64,000 nucleotides of DNA, taken from contig NZ_JACXST010000002.1 of assembly GCF_014850975.1 (NCBI RefSeq), forward strand, positions 992,001 to 1,056,000, read 5' to 3'. Both the position numbers and the translations under genes were made by a program. Below are positions 1 to 15,724 of this stretch, piece by piece (position 1 is the first letter of the stretch; every line of letters starts with the position of its first letter). The stretch is from Methylomonas fluvii (lineage in GTDB: Bacteria > Pseudomonadota > Gammaproteobacteria > Methylococcales > Methylomonadaceae). Below the pieces are notes generated by a model, which was given only the letters and a program-made list of their open reading frames with translations, ran no database searches and was not told the origin of the DNA.

Positions 1-768
1 TTGCACATGAATTTTTATGAACAATTCATGTGCCAAAACAATTCGATCATCGAACAACAATATCCAAGGCTTGATGACAGTTACCCAAGCACCATAAGGA
101 ATGACAAAAACACTTATCAATAATGTCAAATCGCGCGTTGTCACGGACCTGGGTGCCGATAACGATAGCCATCCACCATAGGCAATTAACACAGCGAGTC
201 CGCCAATTGTCAGCAACCAACCTAATACAACCCATACATGCCACCGACGCAATTCGATTTGTCCGTTCCGAAACAACCACCTCACTATCCAACTAGGTTG
301 TACCTCACCCAATTCAGTCATCTGATAGTTGGCTTTCAACTCGGCTGCGATGCTGTTGTCTACCCAATCCTTATCGATAGCGCTATCATCTTCCATGACT
401 TCTGGTACCCGCTCGGCTTTGATATAAAACGTGGTGAGTTTTCCCGGACCGCCCTTTGTACTTTTTCGTTCCGGTTTCGGGTAATGCGGTAGCCCGCGTT
501 TACGAGCAAACTCTATAATTTGCCCCTCGCGAGTTTCGCAATATTTTTTCAAGAAACCCGGCCAATCAATCCACTTTTTCGGATCCGTACTTCCTATCGA
601 GTCTCCAACGGCAGCGACGATTTCTTCGGCTGTGAACCGTCGTTTCGACTCATCGAAATCCGCCTTCTTTAACGATTCCTGGGCTAACGCACGCAATATG
701 CGGTGGCCTTTTTCATCGCTTGGCTCGCTATTCAACCAATCGATCAAGCATTGAATTACCTCGCGCAT
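1..768 (-). CDS. Hypothetical membrane protein, C-terminus cut by window edge
   Basis: An open frame of 256 codons runs leftward from an ATG at 768 and leaves the window without a stop, so the C-terminus is missing. I translated it directly. The first ~165 residues are soluble and charged (KKADFDESKRRFTAEEI; a KPERKSTKGGPGK basic patch near residue 105). They are followed by two hydrophobic segments around residues 182-200 and 215-235. I do not recognise the family. The start is chosen because ATG at 768 is the first ATG in frame; the frame stays open upstream to about 920 with only TTG alternatives. A 23-codon ORF with a strong ribosome binding site (756..827) overlaps the start. The gene points away from the FlhDC-like cluster and probably belongs to the same integrated element. 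Confidence 0.7.
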   Translation of the reverse strand, partial: MREVIQCLIDWLNSEPSDEKGHRILRALAQESLKKADFDESKRRFTAEEIVAAVGDSIGSTDPKKWIDWPGFLKKYCETREGQIIEFARKRGLPHYPKPERKSTKGGPGKLTTFYIKAERVPEVMEDDSAIDKDWVDNSIAAELKANYQMTELGEVQPSWIVRWLFRNGQIELRRWHVWVVLGWLLTIGGLAVLIAYGGWLSLSAPRSVTTRDLTLLISVFVIPYGAWVTVIKPWILLFDDRIVLAHELFIKIHVQ

Positions 769-827
769 AAACCACCCCAAACCAGGTAACCGGTAGTTGC
801 AGTCTGGTTTGCGCTTTGTCGATTCAT
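756..827 (-). CDS. Possible 23-aa leader peptide overlapping the next gene
   Basis: An ATG at 827 is preceded by a clear GGAGG and opens a 23-residue frame (MNRQSANQTATTGYLVWGGL, then CAR) whose stop at 756-758 lies just past the ATG (768) of the membrane protein gene. The downstream gene itself has only a weak GGGGTGG before its ATG. The layout fits translational coupling: ribosomes finishing the short frame would restart at 768. The alternative is that the membrane protein starts further upstream at a TTG and the short frame is chance. Confidence 0.35.
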   Translation of the reverse strand: MNRQSANQTATTGYLVWGGLCAR

Positions 828-1194
828 AACAATGTCCTCCATAACAATTCAAGCTTTGGGTAATACCGAAATGATTTTTAACTATCTGAATTTTATTGGT
901 GTACCAGAAAAAGCACCTTCAGCAACAGCAAGCAACGCTGGAAGCCGGAACGAGAGTATAAGAGTTTCGGAATCATTCAATGGATTCATGTACTCGTTTT
1001 ACGTTTCCGCATTGATCTGGCGGTCCAGTTCGGAAAAAAGAACGTTACGACCATTAATCATTAACTGCTGCAATAAAGTGCCATCAAGGCTTCCAGAGGT
1101 TTGTGACCCAAAACAGGTCACCTTGCGAACGGGACATTTGTGCTTTGACCTCCTAGCATATCGACAACAGCCATTAATCAACTAAGAGGCGTCT
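828..1194. other. Intergenic region between divergent transcripts
   Basis: This gap separates the leftward membrane protein from the rightward flhD-like gene and should contain both promoters. Short open frames exist on both strands, but none has convincing composition. One minus-strand AGGAGG at about 1150 precedes only a 17-codon frame. I see no recognisable operator. Confidence 0.5.
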
Positions 1195-1488
1195 ATGTCA
1201 ACACTGGATGAAGATCTTGCCCGGTTAAATTTCGAATATCTCATGCTAGCCCGGGAATGCGCCCGTAGCAACCCGGCAGAAACAGCATGGCGATTTGGCT
1301 TGGATAAAAACCGTATAGAAAAACTGGCGGACATGACACTGGAACACCTTCGAGATCAAGCTGAAAGTAGCCGAGCGGTTATTCAACTGTTGCCGGTCTT
1401 CGTTCCAAGTGGCGTCTCCATGAGCACCTACGTGGATTTACTTCAACCCTTCATGCCGGAGTGGACCGATGAAAACAGTGCGATTTAA
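1195..1488 (+). CDS. FlhD-like transcriptional activator subunit
   Basis: A 97-residue protein with the FlhD layout. An N-terminal segment LARLNFEYLMLARECAR matches the FlhD dimer helix (E. coli has LSYLLLAQ there). It is followed by a helix-rich region with WRFGLDKN and LADMTLEHLRDQAES, matching the FlhD FRLGINEE...LTLPQMVKLAE region. FlhD works as a hetero-oligomer with FlhC to bind DNA and recruit RNA polymerase. An AAGAGG ribosome site precedes ATG 1195, and the gene overlaps the flhC-like gene by 20 nt, so the two subunits are translationally coupled. No flagellar gene is nearby. In ICEs and IncC plasmids such pairs (SetDC, AcaDC) switch on conjugation genes, and the tRNA-adjacent context favours that role by inference. 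Confidence 0.8.
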   Translation: MSTLDEDLARLNFEYLMLARECARSNPAETAWRFGLDKNRIEKLADMTLEHLRDQAESSRAVIQLLPVFVPSGVSMSTYVDLLQPFMPEWTDENSAI

Positions 1489-2062
1489 AAAGGCATCGAA
1501 TTTTGCCAACCACTTGGTTTTAGCTGAGCAATTGATCCAGCTTGGCGCTCGCCCTCCTATTGTGAGTCAACTTTGTCGATTGTCTCGGCAGCAGAGTATC
1601 GACTTGTATAAATCAGTAAAAGGATGCCCACCCAAACAAGGCATGCTTCCTCATGATCACCAATGGGTTATTCAGTCCACCTGCCGTAATATTCACGCGT
1701 CGCTATTTTTAGGCATTCTCGATGATATTCGGCGTCGATTATCAATTCAGCAATCTTCAGCACAGGTATTGGTTGACGCCTATAGCATTTATAAAAACAT
1801 CGTATCAAACATATTCATCGAGCCTAAAGGAATATCTCTTGGAGCAAAACAGTTCTCGTTAGACATAAACAGAGCATGGTCTTTAATCAGCATGCTCTTG
1901 GCCGGCGATTTGATATTCACTGTTTGCGCATGTTGCAGAGCACGCTTTCTCAGCATGATTCACCCTAATGCAACCTTTAGCCAGTGCCCAATCTGCACTG
2001 TTTGGACTGATCGTTCGGGACGACGACGCTGGGTTTCTGCAAAGTCCAAAAAACCGATTTGA
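1469..2062 (+). CDS. FlhC-like transcriptional activator subunit
   Basis: A 197-residue protein matching FlhC end to end. AEQLIQLGARPPIVSQLCRLSR is the FlhC N-terminal DNA-binding region, followed by IDLYKSVKGCPPKQGMLP (E. coli LIKLYKELRGSPPPKGMLP) and a central helical region with NRAWSLISMLLAGDL. The C-terminal zinc site is intact, with Cys pairs in VCACCRARF and QCPICT. FlhC binds DNA with its zinc domain in complex with FlhD. A GGAG lies just upstream of ATG 1469, inside the end of the flhD-like frame. The basic C-terminal tail (RSGRRRWVSAKSKK) is typical. Probably a mobile-element activator rather than the flagellar regulator, since its partner and neighbours are non-flagellar. Confidence 0.85.
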   Translation: MKTVRFKKASNFANHLVLAEQLIQLGARPPIVSQLCRLSRQQSIDLYKSVKGCPPKQGMLPHDHQWVIQSTCRNIHASLFLGILDDIRRRLSIQQSSAQVLVDAYSIYKNIVSNIFIEPKGISLGAKQFSLDINRAWSLISMLLAGDLIFTVCACCRARFLSMIHPNATFSQCPICTVWTDRSGRRRWVSAKSKKPI

Positions 2063-2112
2063 TTACATCACTCAGCCTGGAGACCATCCATACGCTACTA
2101 AGGAGAAGTCGC

Positions 2113-2706
2113 ATGCATATTGCTGTCATTACAGCCACTGAATCCCAAATACCTCAGCCCGTTCATGGCAAAAATCTGGCTCGGCTCGCACGCGAGTGCT
2201 TTGCCAATCAGCAGATATTGACCATTGATTTTAAGGACGTCAAGACAATTACCCAGGGATTCTTTCAGGAATTATTTTTTCCTTTGATTACTGAGTTTGG
2301 CGCCGATTATTTGAAATCGAAACTTATAGTCATTAACTTGAGTGACACAAATAAAATCCAAATGCAATCTGCATTCAAAAGCTTGGACGACTATTTCGAT
2401 AAACTTTCATCGATCAATCACCAAGGGTGCGACGAAGAGATTTACACGATGAATCAAACTTGGTTGATCAAGGCCAGAGAAATCGCGCGGGAAAATCCAG
2501 TATTGACAGAGTTAGTGCTGGGGATAACGGATGACACCATGCGAACAGCACTCGGTCATTTGTCCTTGGAGGACATTCAGTTCATCGCTCGCTCCAATTG
2601 GCTTTGCTTCACTCCTCGGTTTTCCAGTCAGTTCCTGATGAACATAAATAAGGAACAACCGCCGATAGTGGAGGCCATGCTCGGTTTAACCGGTTCTATA
2701 TGCTGA
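2113..2706 (+). CDS. STAS-like (DUF4325) domain fused to an FlhD-like domain
   Basis: The frame is open from a TTG at 2059, but ATG 2113 has AAGGAG at good spacing, giving 197 residues. Residues 1-95 resemble the STAS-like DUF4325 domain: GKNLARLAREC, the core strand ILTIDFKDVKTITQGFFQE and then LIVINLSD. Residues ~113-185 resemble FlhD: WLIKAREIARENPVLTELVLGITDD and LGHLSLEDIQFIARSNW match the FlhD subunit upstream. An in-frame ATG at 2449 (residue 113) could yield the FlhD-like part alone. STAS-like domains usually carry protein interaction or signal input, so this could gate the activator. I know of no described FlhD with this fusion. It is followed directly by the second flhC-like gene. 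Domain calls are from motif recognition only. Confidence 0.65.
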   Translation: MHIAVITATESQIPQPVHGKNLARLARECFANQQILTIDFKDVKTITQGFFQELFFPLITEFGADYLKSKLIVINLSDTNKIQMQSAFKSLDDYFDKLSSINHQGCDEEIYTMNQTWLIKAREIARENPVLTELVLGITDDTMRTALGHLSLEDIQFIARSNWLCFTPRFSSQFLMNINKEQPPIVEAMLGLTGSIC

Positions 2707-2717
2707 GAGGGTGGTCT

Positions 2718-3185
2718 ATGCTGAAAAAATATCAACAGCAAACGTTAGCCATTGAATTGCTGAAACGCCATGCCAGGGTGAAAATCGTGCATCAAGTGAC
2801 CGGCATTCCCATCAAGCCATTAAGGCAAACCTATCGACAATTGCATGGTCGTTCTCCTACCCCAGGTTCAATCAAGTTTTCAACACGCGGGTTGACTGGA
2901 AGTAGACGCAAATATAAAGACGTTACGCTGTTTGCGGTTTGCTATCGGGTGGCCGCGAGTAAGTTGGCCGATGATCAAATTCAAGCAGTGATAACCGCCT
3001 TTGATGCCTATAAACATTCCTACCCATTCGGAAACCTTGATTTTTCAGCGGCGTGGGTTGTGTCTGAGGACATTAAGGATAAAAAAGTGCAGGTCTCAAT
3101 ATGTCCACATTGTCGTGCTTGGGTACTGTTGAATGCAAGAGAAGACCTGGTTGAACGATGTGGCGTATGTAACAACTATTTGTAA
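2718..3185 (+). CDS. Second FlhC-like activator subunit
   Basis: A 155-residue FlhC-like protein. It shows the N-terminal LAIELLKRHARVKIVHQVTGIPIKPLRQTYRQLHG region (compare LIKLYKELRG in FlhC), then SPTPG, a central helical segment and a C-terminal zinc site with Cys pairs in ISICPHCRAW and RCGVCNNY. It is shorter than the first copy (197) and diverged from it, so the two pairs are not a recent duplication. ATG 2718 is chosen because AGAGGGTGG precedes it; ATG 2700 overlaps the previous stop and is an alternative. It probably pairs with the STAS-FlhD protein just upstream. Confidence 0.75.
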   Translation: MLKKYQQQTLAIELLKRHARVKIVHQVTGIPIKPLRQTYRQLHGRSPTPGSIKFSTRGLTGSRRKYKDVTLFAVCYRVAASKLADDQIQAVITAFDAYKHSYPFGNLDFSAAWVVSEDIKDKKVQVSICPHCRAWVLLNAREDLVERCGVCNNYL

Positions 3186-3197
3186 TCAGGTTATCCA

Positions 3198-3422
3198 GTG
3201 AATATTGAATCCGAGCAAAATTCGACGGCAAAAGAAAAGGAATTCCTGAAAATTAACGACATGGTTGAAAAATTGGGCGTGACTCGGACCCAATTTTGGC
3301 GAATGAGGAAGGCAGGTGAGGTTCCTCCACCGGTAATTCGAAATCCACAAATGTGGCTTGCAAGCCAAATTAAAGAATTTTATGAAAGGAGGGTAAAAAA
3401 AGAAGATGTCGGAACACTTTGA
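3198..3422 (+). CDS. AlpA-like excisionase-type DNA-binding regulator
   Basis: A 74-residue protein starting at GTG 3198. It has the AlpA / MerR-like winged-helix pattern: FLKINDMVEKLGVTRTQFWRM, then RKAGEVPPPVI, MWLASQIKEFYERR. AlpA-type proteins act as excisionase or integrase regulators in prophages and integrative elements. It is the last gene before the tRNA cluster, which is the usual place for such a gene next to an attachment site. No integrase lies between it and the tRNA; one would be expected at the other end of the element, outside the window. An internal ATG at 3261 would delete the N-terminal tail. Confidence 0.7.
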   Translation: MNIESEQNSTAKEKEFLKINDMVEKLGVTRTQFWRMRKAGEVPPPVIRNPQMWLASQIKEFYERRVKKEDVGTL

Positions 3423-3546: not shown

Positions 3547-3576
3547 AAGGGCTTAGACATTTCTGTCTAAGCCCTT
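3547..3576 (-). terminator. Rho-independent terminator of the tRNA cluster
   Basis: A perfect 13-bp inverted repeat (arms 3547-3559 and 3564-3576, loop TTTC) is followed on the minus strand by a T-run at 3541-3546. It sits just past the tRNA-Asn 3' end and ends the leftward tRNA transcript. Confidence 0.85.
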
Positions 3577-3584
3577 GATTTATT

Positions 3585-3660
3585 TGGCTCCCCCGGACGG
3601 GCTCGAACCGCCGACCTAGTGATTAACAGTCACCCGCTCTACCGACTGAGCTACAGGGGA
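3585..3660 (-). tRNA. tRNA-Asn (GTT)
   Basis: A complete 76-nt cloverleaf on the minus strand. The acceptor begins TCCCCTG at 3660, the D-loop has AGCTCAGTCGGTAGAG, the anticodon loop reads CTGTTAA (anticodon GTT), the T-loop has GGTTCGAGCC, and CCA is encoded. Its 3' half faces the accessory region, the usual geometry for integration into a tRNA gene. Confidence 0.95.
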
Positions 3661-10258: not shown

Positions 10259-11065
10259 ATGCCTGAACCGCTCACTGCTGTTGGGCTTGGTGCCGTTGCT
10301 GCGTATTTAGGCAAGGACGGAATTCAAAAGCTGCTTGGTCCGACCGCCGATTACTTAGGTCAAGGGCTTCGAGACTACACACAAAAACGTGCCCAGACCA
10401 TTGGCCAAATCTTTCAAAAGGCCGAAGCAAAGCTTGGGGAAAAGCTCGACACGCCTGGCGAAGTACCTCCAAAGGTTCTAAAGGCCGTCCTTGATGAGGG
10501 TTCGTTTTCCAATGACTCCTTAGCGGTCGAATATCTTGGGGGGATTCTTGCCTCCTCAAGAACCGAACGCGGTCGAGATGACCGGGGCGCACGCATAGCA
10601 AAAGTTGTAGATAACCTTTCGACATATCAGCTCCGAACACACTACTTGGTCTATTCAACAGTTCGCAAATTGTTTGCGGATTCCGGACTTCTACTGAACA
10701 TGGAAGGTAGGCCAAAGATGCAAATCTTCATTCCCTACTCGGGTTATCTTTCCGCAATGGATTTCTCTGAGTCCGAGCTACATCAGCTAAATTCACTTTT
10801 TAGTCATATTTTTTTTGGCTTGCATGGCGACAATCTGTTGGAAGGGCAATGGCGGTATGGAGAAAAAGAACACATTGTGAAGATTTATCCCGCCGCATCA
10901 GAAGGAGGCATTGTCTGTCAACCATCTTCACTTGGCGTGGAGTTGTTCCTGTGGGCATTTGGCCATGCTGACAAGGGGCTTAACTACCTATTTAGCCCAG
11001 AGTTCTCGCCAGTCGCCGACGGATTGCCAATATCGATTGACGACGCCTGTGCGACAACGGCATAA
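10259..11065 (+). CDS. Abi-alpha-like (DUF4393-type) protein
   Basis: A 268-residue protein with GGAGG six bases before its ATG. The N-terminal half has the layout of the Abi-alpha / DUF4393 family: GLGAVAAYLGKDGIQKLLGPTA, DYLGQGLRDYTQKRAQTIG, then a long helix and VPPKVLKAVLDEGSFSNDS, LAVEYLGGILASS and a linker before LSTYQLRTHYLVYS. The C-terminal half (150-268) is unassigned. Family members were linked to abortive infection in lactococci; a phage-defence role here is inference. It stands alone, followed by a strong inverted repeat. Confidence 0.5.
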   Translation: MPEPLTAVGLGAVAAYLGKDGIQKLLGPTADYLGQGLRDYTQKRAQTIGQIFQKAEAKLGEKLDTPGEVPPKVLKAVLDEGSFSNDSLAVEYLGGILASSRTERGRDDRGARIAKVVDNLSTYQLRTHYLVYSTVRKLFADSGLLLNMEGRPKMQIFIPYSGYLSAMDFSESELHQLNSLFSHIFFGLHGDNLLEGQWRYGEKEHIVKIYPAASEGGIVCQPSSLGVELFLWAFGHADKGLNYLFSPEFSPVADGLPISIDDACATTA

Positions 11066-11076
11066 CACGGCAGCAA

Positions 11077-11134
11077 GTAGCCTCGATGGAATCGTGGGTT
11101 CGAAGGCCGACACCCTCGATTCCATCGAGGCTAC
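11077..11134. repeat. 18-bp inverted repeat, possible REP element or terminator
   Basis: Two perfect 18-base arms (11077-11094 and 11117-11134, beginning GTAGCCTCGATGG and ending CCATCGAGGCTAC) flank a 22-nt spacer. There is no T-run after it apart from four A. It lies 12 nt after the Abi-alpha-like gene and may stabilise or end that transcript, or be a dispersed palindrome. Confidence 0.7.
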
Positions 11135-11276
11135 AAAAACCCGCCCTGGTAGTACAATCTCATAACAACCTCAAGCGGCTATCCATTCCACTGCGGTCAC
11201 TAAAGCCGAAGCGCGATGGTCCGTTTTTAGCCGCTCTCGTAGATCCAACCTCATTGATTTTGAGCACCAACAAACC

Positions 11277-13154
11277 TCAAACCGCCCCTCTCAGTTCCAC
11301 CGGCCGCCCCATGCAAAGCCTTAAATACACTCTGGCGATGGCAATGCCGTTGATCACAAACGATACGGTAATCGGCGCGGCGAACCAGGGATGCTGACTG
11401 CTGGCATGCGACAGCAGCAAATCCTCGCCCAAGAATGCCGGCGTGATCGGAAAGCCGACCAAGCCCAGGAAGCTCAGAAACAACATTAAAGACCAACCGG
11501 GCTGGGTTTCGGCGAAGGCGCGAAACACAAAAGGTTCGTCGGCGAAATGGTAATGTCTCAACAAAACGCTAAGCGCAACAATACCCAAAGCCCATGAGGG
11601 GATGATGCCGCTGAAAAACAACGCGACATCGTACCAAGCGGCAGGCACCATCAACCACACCGCCACGCCAGCCAAAATACTGCTCAAGGCCACGCTATGC
11701 CAAACCTGGAACGGGCTGCGTTTGTTGCTGAACGCGCTCAAAGACACGACCGCCATCGCCAGCGAAATCGGCATCGACAAATAAATTCTGGCCACGCTGC
11801 TGACGCCGGATGCAGCGATGGCGATAATCGCCAACAGCGCTAGGCCCGCCAAAATTTTGATCCACAGGCTCACCCCGTTCAGTTGCCGACCCACGTTTTT
11901 CAGAGGTTCCCACAAAATCTTCTTCACCAACAGCTCCAACAGCCCTTCCTGCAGGGCAAACACATACAAGGTGTTTTGCAATACGTCAGGCAAGGAATCG
12001 CGAATCGAGGTTGGCAAAAACGTCATTTGATCATTGTTTTTGATATAAAAATCGCTATCGACATTGCCTTCCACGCGCAGTAAATGTGCCACGATGGATG
12101 GCGACACCAACAACTGATAGCAACGCAAAAAGGCATTACCGGTAAAGTGCAGCAACACCAAATCTTCCAGGCCCAATGCCAACTCGACGAACATAATCCC
12201 TACTTGCGCGATAGAGGCGTAAGCCACTTGACCTTTGATATTGGATTGGGTCTTTTCGGCCAGCGTGGCGACAAACACCGTCAACACACCGATGCTTAGG
12301 ACAATCAAACGCGGCAGGTAGTGATAACTCCAGATCGGCATGGTCCGCAATAACAGAAACACGCCCAGATGAATCGATAGCGCGCCATAAAAAATCGCGC
12401 TGGACGGCGTCGGCCCTTCCATGGCCCTAGGCAGCCAGAAGCTAAACGGAAACTGCGCCGATTTACCGGAAGCAGCCAAAATGATCAGCCAGGATAAAAT
12501 CGACAAGGAGGCATAGCCGGCGGGCGGAATATTGTTGGGATCGAACATAGTCAACAACTGGCTAAAATGCTGACTTTCGTGAAACAGCAGATGGCTCATC
12601 CAGGTCCCGACCAGCAAACCGACATCGCAAAAGCGGTAAATGGTGTAGGCGCGTAAAGCATTGCGTACCGGCTGTGGCCGATGCCGATAAAAGGCAATCA
12701 GCAAAAATGAGGATATACCGACGATCTCCCAACCGGCAAACAGCATGTCGATACTGCCGGACAGCACTATCAGGTTTAACCCAAACGCAAACCCGAAAAT
12801 AGCTTGGAAAAAGCGTTTGTAGCCCGCTTCCCGGTGCAAATAAACCCGGCAATATTTGACAATGGCCGAGAACACCGCCCACACCACAAACAAATACACG
12901 GCGCCGACCCTATCCAGAAAAAACAGCAAGGGGAATTGATAATCGTCGTGTTGATACAGCACCAGCCATTGATATTCAAAGTTGGCAAAGCCATGGGCGG
13001 CCCATGCCGCCAGTAAACCTAGCACAGCCACCCCTTTGATTCGGGTCATCCACAGGCTGATCGCGGCAATTCGATGTTCGTTGTCCGGGCTGAAAAAAAT
13101 CAGCAAAAATCCAAGCAATGGCAATAACACACACGCCAATAATAAAGCACTCAC
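11277..13154 (-). CDS. dabB: DabB, NuoL-like membrane subunit of the DAB inorganic-carbon pump
   Basis: A 625-residue polytopic protein of the proton-conducting NADH dehydrogenase subunit-5 family (NuoL/MrpA-like), with about 14-16 TM helices. Typical features are SFLLIAFY, SGKSAQFPFSFWLPRAMEGPTP and KGQVAYASIAQVGIM. In DAB systems this subunit forms the membrane half that couples an ion gradient to vectorial CO2 hydration by DabA. Its start overlaps the dabA stop by 4 nt (ATGA type), so the pair is one operon on the minus strand. Confidence 0.88.
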   Translation of the reverse strand: MSALLLACVLLPLLGFLLIFFSPDNEHRIAAISLWMTRIKGVAVLGLLAAWAAHGFANFEYQWLVLYQHDDYQFPLLFFLDRVGAVYLFVVWAVFSAIVKYCRVYLHREAGYKRFFQAIFGFAFGLNLIVLSGSIDMLFAGWEIVGISSFLLIAFYRHRPQPVRNALRAYTIYRFCDVGLLVGTWMSHLLFHESQHFSQLLTMFDPNNIPPAGYASLSILSWLIILAASGKSAQFPFSFWLPRAMEGPTPSSAIFYGALSIHLGVFLLLRTMPIWSYHYLPRLIVLSIGVLTVFVATLAEKTQSNIKGQVAYASIAQVGIMFVELALGLEDLVLLHFTGNAFLRCYQLLVSPSIVAHLLRVEGNVDSDFYIKNNDQMTFLPTSIRDSLPDVLQNTLYVFALQEGLLELLVKKILWEPLKNVGRQLNGVSLWIKILAGLALLAIIAIAASGVSSVARIYLSMPISLAMAVVSLSAFSNKRSPFQVWHSVALSSILAGVAVWLMVPAAWYDVALFFSGIIPSWALGIVALSVLLRHYHFADEPFVFRAFAETQPGWSLMLFLSFLGLVGFPITPAFLGEDLLLSHASSQHPWFAAPITVSFVINGIAIARVYLRLCMGRPVELRGAV

Positions 13155-15724
13155 GCCTGTCTCCTTTCCAATTGGTGAACCGGAATCGTCCGGTTTTGTC
13201 CGACAATAATTTTTTCCGAGTGGCTGGCAGTCGGCAACGGTCTGCCAGCCGCGGGTTCAGCCACCTTCCAACCATCGCTGCTGTACAAATACAGGGCGCG
13301 GCTCACCGGATCGCAAGCCACCAAACGTATCCACTCGTTATCCAGCCATTCCCGCCAGCCGCCCAACATAGCAATGGCCTGATCGGCAATCGCGGTCGTT
13401 TGCTCCACTACCATTAACAAGCGCGCCGGCTCGTGCACCTCCACCATTTGCGACGGCAAGCCGGTGCGTAAATCGCCTTCCACGCCGTTGGCCACGCCCA
13501 ACAGACCGATCACGTTGTGCGGCAGCTTGGTGCCGGCGCCGTAGACCGAATTGTCGATGCGCGAAAACAGGTACTCCAGATTGATACCGCCGCATACCGG
13601 AATCACCGCCGACAACACCTTGACCAAAATCGAACCGTCGCTATCGCTGTTGGGATCGTAGGATTGCAAAAACGCCCGCCGGTCCAAGAATAAATGCCGG
13701 GTCAAGTCGCGCCGCCCCACCACGCAATACAGATTATTGGAGTGGTTCAGTTCAGGACGCGGCTCGAAAATCGACGAGGCCCGCGCCACCACATGATTAT
13801 GCGCTTCTGCGTTGTTATGCGATTTTGGCCCCAACTCAAACCAACGGCAGCGTTCGCGCGCATTGCGCTGCAAGGCATGTTGCATGCTATGCTGAAAATT
13901 GTGCAGTTGCTGGCGCGCGGTTTTATCCAGTTCCTGTTGATCGAAATAACTGATCTCGTCACGGCTAGTGTTGTGTAAGGCCGGCACAAAATGCGTACCG
14001 GCAGGAATGTCTATCCCCCGCTCACGCAAAATATCGCGAACCTGCGGATGATTCGCCATCCAGGCAAAAGCCCGCGCATTCGGCGCACCGGGCTTACCGG
14101 AGCAAGCACCGCAATCATAAGCAGCGAAATGCGGATTGTTGACGCTGCTGGAACCATGCGCCACCACCACGATTAACGGCGCAAACTGCTTGGTTAGACC
14201 AATATTACGCAGTAGCCCCCCTACCCGATCAGCCATTTCCGGCAACGAAAAACCCAACAGATAGCCGTCTTCGTTGAGTTCCTCGCTCTCGCGCAGCAGA
14301 TGCAAATGACTGTGCGCTTCCACTTCGCTCAAGCTTTGGATGCCCGGTAATTGGCCGCCGGGGCGCAATACGCTCCAGCCCAAGCGCAACGCATATGCCA
14401 GCCCCAGCGTTTGCGTGTACAGCCACCCGCGCAGCATGGAATGCGCGCCAAAATGCATAGTCGACAGCGATTCGCCCTTATCGGATTTGTCAGGCTGCGG
14501 CGTATCGGTCGATTCCAATATCAGATGTTTGGGTTTAATCACCACCGGACACTGCGCCACCGGATACACATCGTCCAAGCCTTGGTAGAGAAAATCGATA
14601 CCAAAAAATCCCGGTGCGCCGAAGGTTTCGATACCCGGATCCATTTCTTCCAAATAGCGCCGCAGCGAACACTCTCTATCGTCAATGCAAAATAGCGCCT
14701 GCACTTTGGGCGCATGCTCCGCTGACGGATTAATGGGCGCTTGCTGGTGCAAGGCTATTAGTAATTCAGAATGCAGCGACCACTCCATTGCCTCGTGCCA
14801 CACCCGCATTTTCAACGGCACCTGGGGCTGGGTCGCATCGCGCTCCAGTAAAGGAATAGCGTGTAAATTCGGTAGCTGGGCGATCTGTAAAAATCGATGC
14901 CCGTGTTTTTTATCGATAAACGCCAACTCGCAAGCCAGTTCCACCGCTAACAATTCTTTCAGCGAAATAGCCCGTGGCGCTAGCAACACGTTGGGCTGGG
15001 TTTCGATAATCCGCACCATCCCGGACCAACCGGGATGCGCCAGCAATACTTCCAAGAGATATTGGCCGTATAAGCTTTCATCGCCAACAATTTTGCCTAA
15101 ACAGTTCAAAATCACCTGGTCCGGCCCGGCGTCCAGCATTTGCCGCACCACCGGCTGATGAAACGGATACAGAGGTAAAAGGCTGTTTTGCACCAAACGT
15201 AACACGCAATCCCAAAAACGCTCGTCCGGTTTGGGCATGGCCCAACGGCTGATGCCCTGATCAAGAAAATTGCTTAACAATCTGAACATCACCGGATGCA
15301 CCATCCCGTTCAAGTCGATTTCCAGGTGATTGAGCCAAGCAATACGGATACCGTGGTTAGCCAACGACTGTGGCGGATAATGGCTATGATCATCCGGCTC
15401 AAACAAAGACGACCGCAATGACTGTTCTTGATAGACGCTGCAATTGGCCTGCGCAATCGCCCATTCCAGCGCCTGATCGCTGATCCGGCCTTCGTGATAG
15501 CGTTTCAGGTAATCGGCCAAAGGCAAATAGCTTTTCGCGCCATACACTTGAGCCGCCACCGCCACACCCTCGTGAAACGGATAGTCCTGCACGGCGTGCA
15601 AGGTGTTGTGATGAATAAAATCCTTGATAGGCCCCTGGCTGGGCAGCCAATGGGCGATGTGGTCGATAGCCGCATTGAGATCGAACGCAGCCTTGTGAAC
15701 ATTGTGATGGGCGGAAGCAGACAT
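13151..15724 (-). CDS. dabA: DabA, DUF2309 carbonic-anhydrase-like subunit of the DAB pump
   Basis: An 857-residue DUF2309 protein. The zinc-site residues known from Halothiobacillus DabA are all present by counting: C346 and D348 in LFCIDDRECS, H523 in VVAHGSSS and C538 in AYDCGACSG. These positions nearly coincide with C351, D353, H524 and C539 of the characterised protein. With DabB it hydrates CO2 to bicarbonate one-way in the cytoplasm, raising internal inorganic carbon. It is transcribed divergently from a SulP-type anion transporter, a second candidate bicarbonate importer. No LysR regulator is adjacent. Confidence 0.92.
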   Translation of the reverse strand: MSASAHHNVHKAAFDLNAAIDHIAHWLPSQGPIKDFIHHNTLHAVQDYPFHEGVAVAAQVYGAKSYLPLADYLKRYHEGRISDQALEWAIAQANCSVYQEQSLRSSLFEPDDHSHYPPQSLANHGIRIAWLNHLEIDLNGMVHPVMFRLLSNFLDQGISRWAMPKPDERFWDCVLRLVQNSLLPLYPFHQPVVRQMLDAGPDQVILNCLGKIVGDESLYGQYLLEVLLAHPGWSGMVRIIETQPNVLLAPRAISLKELLAVELACELAFIDKKHGHRFLQIAQLPNLHAIPLLERDATQPQVPLKMRVWHEAMEWSLHSELLIALHQQAPINPSAEHAPKVQALFCIDDRECSLRRYLEEMDPGIETFGAPGFFGIDFLYQGLDDVYPVAQCPVVIKPKHLILESTDTPQPDKSDKGESLSTMHFGAHSMLRGWLYTQTLGLAYALRLGWSVLRPGGQLPGIQSLSEVEAHSHLHLLRESEELNEDGYLLGFSLPEMADRVGGLLRNIGLTKQFAPLIVVVAHGSSSVNNPHFAAYDCGACSGKPGAPNARAFAWMANHPQVRDILRERGIDIPAGTHFVPALHNTSRDEISYFDQQELDKTARQQLHNFQHSMQHALQRNARERCRWFELGPKSHNNAEAHNHVVARASSIFEPRPELNHSNNLYCVVGRRDLTRHLFLDRRAFLQSYDPNSDSDGSILVKVLSAVIPVCGGINLEYLFSRIDNSVYGAGTKLPHNVIGLLGVANGVEGDLRTGLPSQMVEVHEPARLLMVVEQTTAIADQAIAMLGGWREWLDNEWIRLVACDPVSRALYLYSSDGWKVAEPAAGRPLPTASHSEKIIVGQNRTIPVHQLERRQA

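Follow-up and report, generated by a model that had tools for sequence, protein, structure and literature searches.

The window analyzed here, a 64,000-nucleotide stretch (C2:992001-1056000) of the 5.59-Mb, four-contig genome of Methylomonas fluvii, a likely methanotroph, contains near its start four genes related to flhD and flhC. These genes, D1, C1, D2 and C2, follow one another on one strand at positions 1195-3185 and overlap or almost touch, as read from the open reading frames (ORFs) of the window (Table 1). The tandem array forms the right end of a 158-kb integrative and conjugative element (ICE), which carries a third pair, D3C3, toward its other end. Positions without a prefix refer to the window; C2: as a prefix denotes the contig, not the gene.

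Table 1. Features at the array and at the right end of the ICE
Feature	Position	Strand	Description
Membrane-protein-like ORF	1..852 (C2:991782-992852)	-	divergent, 356 aa (likely 328 aa, start near 768)
Box A	1098..1126	+	dyad with GTGACC-CAAAACA-GGTCAC core, ahead of D1
Promoter-like	1131..1159	+	-35 GGGACA, 17 bp, -10 TAGCAT; 4 bp past box A
D1	1195..1488	+	FlhD-like, 97 aa; Pfam match stops at residue 62
C1	1469..2062	+	FlhC-like, intact Zn site; clade beside flagellar FlhC
D2	2113..2706	+	STAS-like (DUF4325) domain fused to FlhD, 197 aa
C2	2700..3185	+	FlhC-like, intact Zn site; likely start 2718
xis-like (AlpA/HTH_17)	3198..3422	+	12 bp after C2; HTH_17 18.3 bits, below the cut-off of 27
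attR	3569..3631		63-bp direct repeat; second copy at C2:837263-837325
tRNA-Asn(GTT)	3585..3660	-	integration site

All four array proteins were related to FlhD or FlhC by Pfam, in agreement with the order D-C-D-C given in the preliminary description of this DNA. At a domain cut-off of 27 bits, D1, D3, C1 and C2 scored at or above the threshold, and the FlhD part of D2 (19.7 bits) and C3 (22.9 bits) fell below it. The assignment of C3 to the FlhC family is backed by alignment and tree, and that of the FlhD part of D2 by structure. The predicted four-Cys zinc site could be read in C1 and C2, so that the intact zinc sites earlier ascribed to both C subunits were found; in an alignment of 15 C3 proteins, the predicted zinc-site residues C148, C151, C167 and C170 were invariant. 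The C-terminal FlhD motif was not seen in D1. An ORF at 832-1185 fused to D1 was rejected as an artefact of longest-ORF calling that spans the promoter, and the longest ORF of D2 would begin at TTG 2059. The xis-like gene is probably the last gene of the array transcript; the gap between C2 and the xis of the tRNA-Asn type was -4 to 13 bp at all 15 loci having that gene.

The N-terminal part of D2 matched DUF4325, a STAS-like domain (2.2e-12), and both domains were present in 94 of the 99 D2 homologues found, the closest being that of Methylomonas sp. MK1 (98%). In the predicted structure, residues 1-91 resemble the STAS antagonists of anti-sigma factors and residues 103-170 correspond to FlhD. 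The relative placing of the two domains is unsure because of the confidence of the model (predicted local distance difference test score 76, predicted template modelling score 0.59). FlhD was the top-ranked Foldseek hit of this model, at a non-significant level. The predicted STAS fold is the one found in switches of the CapS/VapS type, and VapS was a sequence match of the STAS part of D2 (E 4.2e-5 in alignment A2, 0.0092 in alignment A3); the VIA-align rows for the model lacked VapS and were not used as evidence. Among 369 gammaproteobacterial genomes sampled, full-length STAS-FlhD turned up in no genome but the window's own, and the FlhD part was matched in one other genome. Among the titles listed in searches of the open-access literature, none was seen to report a fusion of STAS with FlhD, more than one FlhDC pair per element, or such ICEs in Methylomonas or other methanotrophs. 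The fusion is apparently unreported so far. Outside the ICE, a chromosomal frame of 344 aa at C2:1122141-1122836 matched GHKL ATPase and DUF4325 and is possibly a CapK/VapK-like kinase.

The repeat attR is an exact 63-bp copy of the 3' part of tRNA-Asn, and its two copies bound 158,306 bp; the attachment (att) repeat was checked for the window ICE. From the left end onward, the element carries a tyrosine integrase gene, a Fic gene, a transglycosylase gene (LTG), D3, C3, traG-H-F, mobI and cargo. Its middle continues with mobH-traD, cargo that includes a nonribosomal-peptide-synthetase-like protein, and traL-E-K-B-dsbC-C-W-U-N, and its right part consists of more cargo, ssb-recT, further cargo, the array, xis and attR. 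Profile searches matched an Arm-type tyrosine integrase, MobI (9.5e-36), an SLT transglycosylase, D3 and C3. The tra genes were identified by tblastn against R997, which found mobH, traD, traL/E/K/B/C/W/U/N and traF/H/G; the tra proteins are approximately 32-61% identical to those of R997. The att repeat, the integrase, MobI, MobH, TraD and the F-type tra set bear out the integrative element suspected earlier. The non-flagellar setting also held, since the array lies in an ICE with transfer genes and not in a flagellar regulon. Traits of the SXT/R391 family found here are MobH/TraD, the F-type tra order, MobI, and traFHG next to an activator pair. SXT/R391 ICEs integrate in prfC, but the att repeat of the present element sits in tRNA-Asn. 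No ICE ORF of at least 60 aa matched the region of R997 encoding SetR, the CI/LexA-like repressor that is divergent from the activator operon in this family, at E 1e-4, in a search that a distant repressor could escape.

The pair D3C3 is located approximately 150 kb from the array, at the SetDC position beside the transglycosylase gene and traG. This place is common to setDC of R997, acaDC of an IncC plasmid and the pair of a Thiodictyon plasmid. In the sections of PMC4542580 consulted (all papers are cited here from excerpts), SetCD, AcaCD, SgaCD, AqaCD and AsaCD occur in the same context as a single pair each. Of the earlier account of two pairs, the tandem D1C1/D2C2 stands; it had missed the third pair and the STAS fusion in D2. 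In the tree, C1, C2 and C3 formed three groups. C1 lay with flagellar FlhC (99/93), and C2 (100/100) and C3 (89/90) lay with SetC, AcaC and the Thiodictyon protein. The deep branching order was weak; C2 formed its own clade near SetC, AcaC and C3. Because the three proteins fall in separate groups, the array was likely assembled from old, different pairs, as judged from sequence comparison, and the tree ruled out a recent tandem duplication of C1 and C2. A C3-type gene scoring above 200 bits was counted by hand at 46 loci. In approximately 132 kb searched of the 349-kb plasmid YRD-M1, there was no clear third pair, just a weak FlhC-like trace.

The distribution of the array was surveyed in 101 related genomes, the own genome counted in. 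FlhC matches were present in 33 of them at 80 loci, as grouped by place, and half of these loci (40, in 21 genomes) were tandem pairs. The order D1-C1-D2-C2 on one strand was found at 40 of 40 tandem loci, and a tRNA, xis or integrase gene lay at most 3.5 kb after C2 at 36 of them, the loci without such a marker being L078, L086, L092 and L093. The recurrence of the four-gene order near integration genes in other genomes, a check that had been proposed at the outset, was thus observed. The nearest tRNA was Asn at 15 loci, Pro at 4, His at 4, Ser at 2, Thr at 2, and Met, Lys and Leu at 1 each; at 6 loci int was the only marker. At G032:C1:903808-995191, D1C1 and D2C2 lie approximately 90 kb apart in one ICE (G032a), with seemingly all three pairs retained. 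Its D2C2 is kept beside ssb, and this neighbour suggests that the pair lies elsewhere in the same element, for which reason the idea of an ICE without D2C2 was rejected; the two stretches read had no att repeat between them. The clustering of C1 with flagellar FlhC would be expected if the array governed host flagella, a reading that we consider together with that of idle cargo. This reading is very improbable, since the four genes are kept at every tandem locus, mostly next to integration markers, and since an FlhC match above 250 bits, as expected of the flagellar protein, was found in only 2 of the 101 genomes (G047 and G033).

Three dyads were recognized as putative operators. Box A was present in 37 of 44 upstream regions of the D1 type (at least 22 of 39 positions). 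Its best score within the ICE was 34, with a runner-up of 6.4, and its 19-bp core occurred with at most 3 mismatches at 2 sites in the genome, both preceding arrays (control, 0). Box A as a regulon-wide box was rejected because of its single copy in the ICE. The spacing of the array promoter relative to box A would be class II-like. The sequence AAAGTGACC also occurs, as direct repeats, close to each end of the tRNA-Asn ICE, and the pair was seen at all 6 tRNA-Asn loci examined, as would be expected if box A were an arm site of Int or Xis through which these proteins repress the array. This interpretation was rejected because nine type-I arrays with other integration modules keep box A and have no AAAGTGACC pair within 2.6 kb after C2, and we give it hardly any weight.

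Box L (CGAAAAACC...GGTTTTTCG) lies ahead of LTG-D3-C3, upstream of the -35 region as judged by eye, and its best copies share an 11-7-11 layout with box A. Box T (CAGCTGA-N14-TCAGCTG) lies ahead of mobH, traL and traF, its first base being 67 bp from mobH and 85 bp from traL. The ssb gene of the window ICE has a copy with 2 mismatches ahead of it, and sites linked to ssb were also seen in three relatives. At most one mismatch being allowed, box T had 4 sites in the genome, namely those of mobH, traL and traF in the own ICE and that of mobH in an apparently decayed element; the reversed pattern gave 1 match, and 0 exact ones. Box T occurred 3 times in the element and 0 times in its 20 Markov copies. 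Over 61 genomes the exact pattern had 58 sites in 21 genomes and the reversed pattern none, these being counts of pattern matches and not of individually inspected sites. The mob/tra operons of the ICE thus appear to share the box T dyad, as in systems of the SetDC/AcaDC type. The apparently decayed element (C3:855818-898415), a further one of the same genome, retains box T together with traL, mobH and a D2-C2 pair whose STAS part is damaged.

The variation of box T among related ICEs provides a natural experiment. Position, where it could be used, served to assign traL, D3C3 and the array to 36 ICEs; for draft genomes and G036a, the three were linked by genome and type. In this set, G005a spans 252 kb, and a contig break interrupts the third ICE of the own genome. 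A dyad lies at one place, approximately 50-57 bp upstream of the traL start, with clearly different sequences among the ICEs: types I (with variants I' and I''), II (a and b), III, IV, V and a plasmid type, together with type VI, named by eye and only weakly dyadic. TraL itself is 82-100% identical within the set (plasmid-type TraL, approximately 48-51%), and IIa and IIb boxes were also found before traF.

Since types I, I' and I'' were first grouped by eye, an ungrouped Mantel test of aligned boxes served as a check, in which 32 aligned box T bases were compared with protein distance in 23 ICEs with type-I arrays. The correlation of box T was 0.64 with C3, 0.61 with D3 and 0.58 with LTG (p 0.0002-0.0004, n 22), as against 0.21 with C1 (p 0.014), 0.22 with D1 (p 0.026), 0.10 with D2 (p 0.11) and 0.05 with C2 (p 0.24). 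In the grouped contrast of type I with four I' ICEs, p was 0.0006 for D3, 0.0002 for C3 and 0.17-0.50 for the array proteins. Both tests single out D3 and C3 over the array proteins; as far as related sequences allow such a conclusion, box T follows D3C3. In the four I' ICEs, 52-62 of the 66 positions of box L still agree with a type-I consensus; box L, being recognizable there, stays with the array and does not follow D3C3. In G005b and G035, the subgroup of C1 (63% to the window) differs from that of D2 and C2 (92/91%), and box L resembles that of the D2C2 subgroup, a hint that D2C2 may read box L.

On this basis we consider it fairly probable that the three pairs act as a relay, in which the array product would act through box L on D3C3 and D3C3 through box T on the transfer genes. 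A cascade had been proposed earlier and is the best reading of the operators, but it had been missed that box T tracks D3C3 and not the tandem pairs. In detail, the array promoter would be controlled at box A, most likely by the product of the array itself, and xis, being in the array transcript, would be made together with the regulators. After excision, the order would be array-xis-attP-int, so that the same transcript could reach int. The array product, D2C2 more likely than D1C1, would activate LTG-D3-C3 via box L. D3C3, the counterpart of SetDC, would then activate mobH-traD, traL-N, traF-H-G and ssb-recT via box T in the class II manner, as described at the -35 region for SetCD and AcaCD (PMC4344509, PMC4207636). 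The STAS domain of D2 would be the likely input of a stress signal, replacing the SetR repressor.

Several facts weigh against this relay. Of the 58 box T sites, 7 are outside known ICEs, of which just the three in islands of G012, G018 and G036 make sense; single sites occur in G067 and G081, and those at G029:C559 and G015:C26 have an uninformative context. The ICE G018a has an array and box T, and no D3C3 was found for it. The compared sequences are related and hence not independent, the type I and I' boxes differ at just 7-9 of 32 positions, and the Mantel values of D1 and C1 are weak yet non-zero. One exception, G009b (L163), has a box nearest I' (4 mismatches) with a C3 of type I (up to 91%); when it was moved to I', p was 0.001 for D3, 0.0002 for C3 and 0.24-0.60 for the array. 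LTG, D3 and C3, being linked, cannot be distinguished as the partner of box T. Over all 36 ICEs with unaligned boxes, the rank correlations were 0.52 for C3, 0.51 for D3 and 0.51 for LTG, with C1 (0.48), D1 (0.46), C2 (0.43) and D2 (0.42) only slightly behind. The link between box L and D2C2 depends on a single recombinant lineage. As for the STAS domain, the residue in the phosphoserine column of VapS is Ser or Thr in just 1 of 43 D2 proteins (the preceding residue is so in 41 of 43), and none of the 17 PF13581 kinase matches of the genome lies inside the ICE. VapS and CapS are described as substrates of DNA-damage-linked kinases (PMC13373217). Because the phosphoserine column is rarely Ser or Thr and the ICE has no PF13581 kinase, the proposed STAS input is only a guess.

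The boxes could instead be repressor sites. The array would then be a brake, in which D1C1 and/or D2C2 repress at box L (and box A) and silence LTG-D3-C3, doing the job of SetR until freed by a signal at the STAS domain. The lack of an ICE ORF matching the SetR region of R997 would suit this explanation, as would the near-perfect dyads of boxes A and L, with the same geometry in their best copies, and the precedent of CapS, a STAS-wHTH repressor released by phosphorylation (PMC13373217). Box A, however, ends 4 bp ahead of a poor -35, and box L lies upstream of its -35 region. These positions resemble the class II promoters of SetCD and AcaCD, and SetCD, AcaCD and FlhDC are described as activators (PMC4344509, PMC4207636). 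We therefore regard a brake as unlikely, though worth keeping in view. It is also conceivable that D1 or D2 combines with C1, C2 or C3 and that specificity arises from the pairing, with no fixed relay. Three D and three C proteins are retained together, D1 is without its usual C-terminal motif, and AcaD has two FlhD-like halves, all of which would accord with such mixing. Since C1, C2 and C3 are three old clades, and since D3C3 can vary independently of the array, mixed pairs seem improbable, and the relay of three distinct pairs is preferred.

The proposed relay can be compared with known systems. SetDC of SXT/R391 resembles D3C3 in its place by the transglycosylase gene and traG and in the kind of predicted targets (mob, tra and ssb-type operons, with a dyad upstream of the -35 region). 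The present ICE differs in its two extra pairs in a separate array, in its tRNA integration and in that SetR was not found; moreover, xis lies within the array here, whereas SetCD acts on the xis and int promoters (PMC4344509). AcaDC of IncC plasmids, like SgaDC of SGI1, shares the order LTG-D-C, but AcaD consists of two FlhD-like halves instead of STAS-FlhD, and the excerpts of PMC4542580 give one pair per element. In our own comparison, AcaD of an IncC plasmid (L202 133-741) resembled two FlhD-like halves in a single protein. BisR-BisDC of ICEclc is likewise an activation cascade within an ICE that ends in an FlhC-like heteromer with feedback (PMC7423338). It has one heteromer, however, BisD is ParB-like with no FlhD domain, and the upstream step is BisR and not an FlhDC pair. 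CapKS and VapKSC share a STAS-like domain attached to a regulator, VapS matching the STAS part of D2; they differ in that the ICE is without a PF13581 kinase and in that the phosphoserine column is not conserved in D2.

The three islands with box T outside ICEs carry it before operons that look alike by eye. In G018 (L194) the operon at 10816-13557 consists of AlpA, an unknown gene and DUF927 (a weak match to the Cch cassette helicase), and the island has a large serine recombinase and the DISARM genes DrmD and DrmMI. In G036 (L195, 7457-10207) the gene starts are the same, the family searches having been made on L194 only, and DISARM-type genes and a large serine recombinase are likewise present. 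In G012 (L196, 11817-15070) there is a DUF927-like region, with no DISARM in the stretch read. Genomic islands exploit the activator of a helper through boxes of their own in the AcaDC system (PMC4207636). The three islands are possibly mobilizable defence islands listening to an ICE activator, and, by analogy with SGI1 and mobilizable genomic islands, which answer to AcaCD and SetCD, they may respond to type-I D3C3.

Other genes of the element are noted here. The divergent membrane-protein-like ORF had no Pfam match and is a candidate sensor; it was matched at 25 of 41 array loci searched, its own included, with full-length homologues of 76-98% identity at 22 other type-I array loci and 2 partial ones. 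Adjoining the array, C2:989893-991386 contains a reverse-transcriptase-like ORF (32% to a group II intron protein). The cargo at C2:899420-922108 has large genes, among them one for a 1767-aa protein with AMP-binding, condensation and PP-binding domains, the nonribosomal-peptide-synthetase-like protein mentioned above.

The present ICE is a new form of control of the SetDC/AcaDC type, with three pairs in one element vs one in the known relatives. The search found no CI-type repressor for this ICE, in whose control STAS-FlhD is a possible signal input. SetCD, AcaCD and FlhDC read very different DNA motifs (PMC4344509, PMC4542580), and how specificity changes in heteromeric activators of the FlhDC type is a question that these ICEs could address. 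With six or more clearly different operator versions at one position, each with its regulator pair, these dozens of related ICEs constitute a set for mapping recognition. We tentatively propose, with rather less confidence than the relay itself, a three-step FlhDC relay with a STAS stress switch in its first steps, in which the last-step regulator and its operators are swapped as a lock-and-key cassette. If this were true, several closely related ICEs could coexist in one cell, each obeying its own activator.

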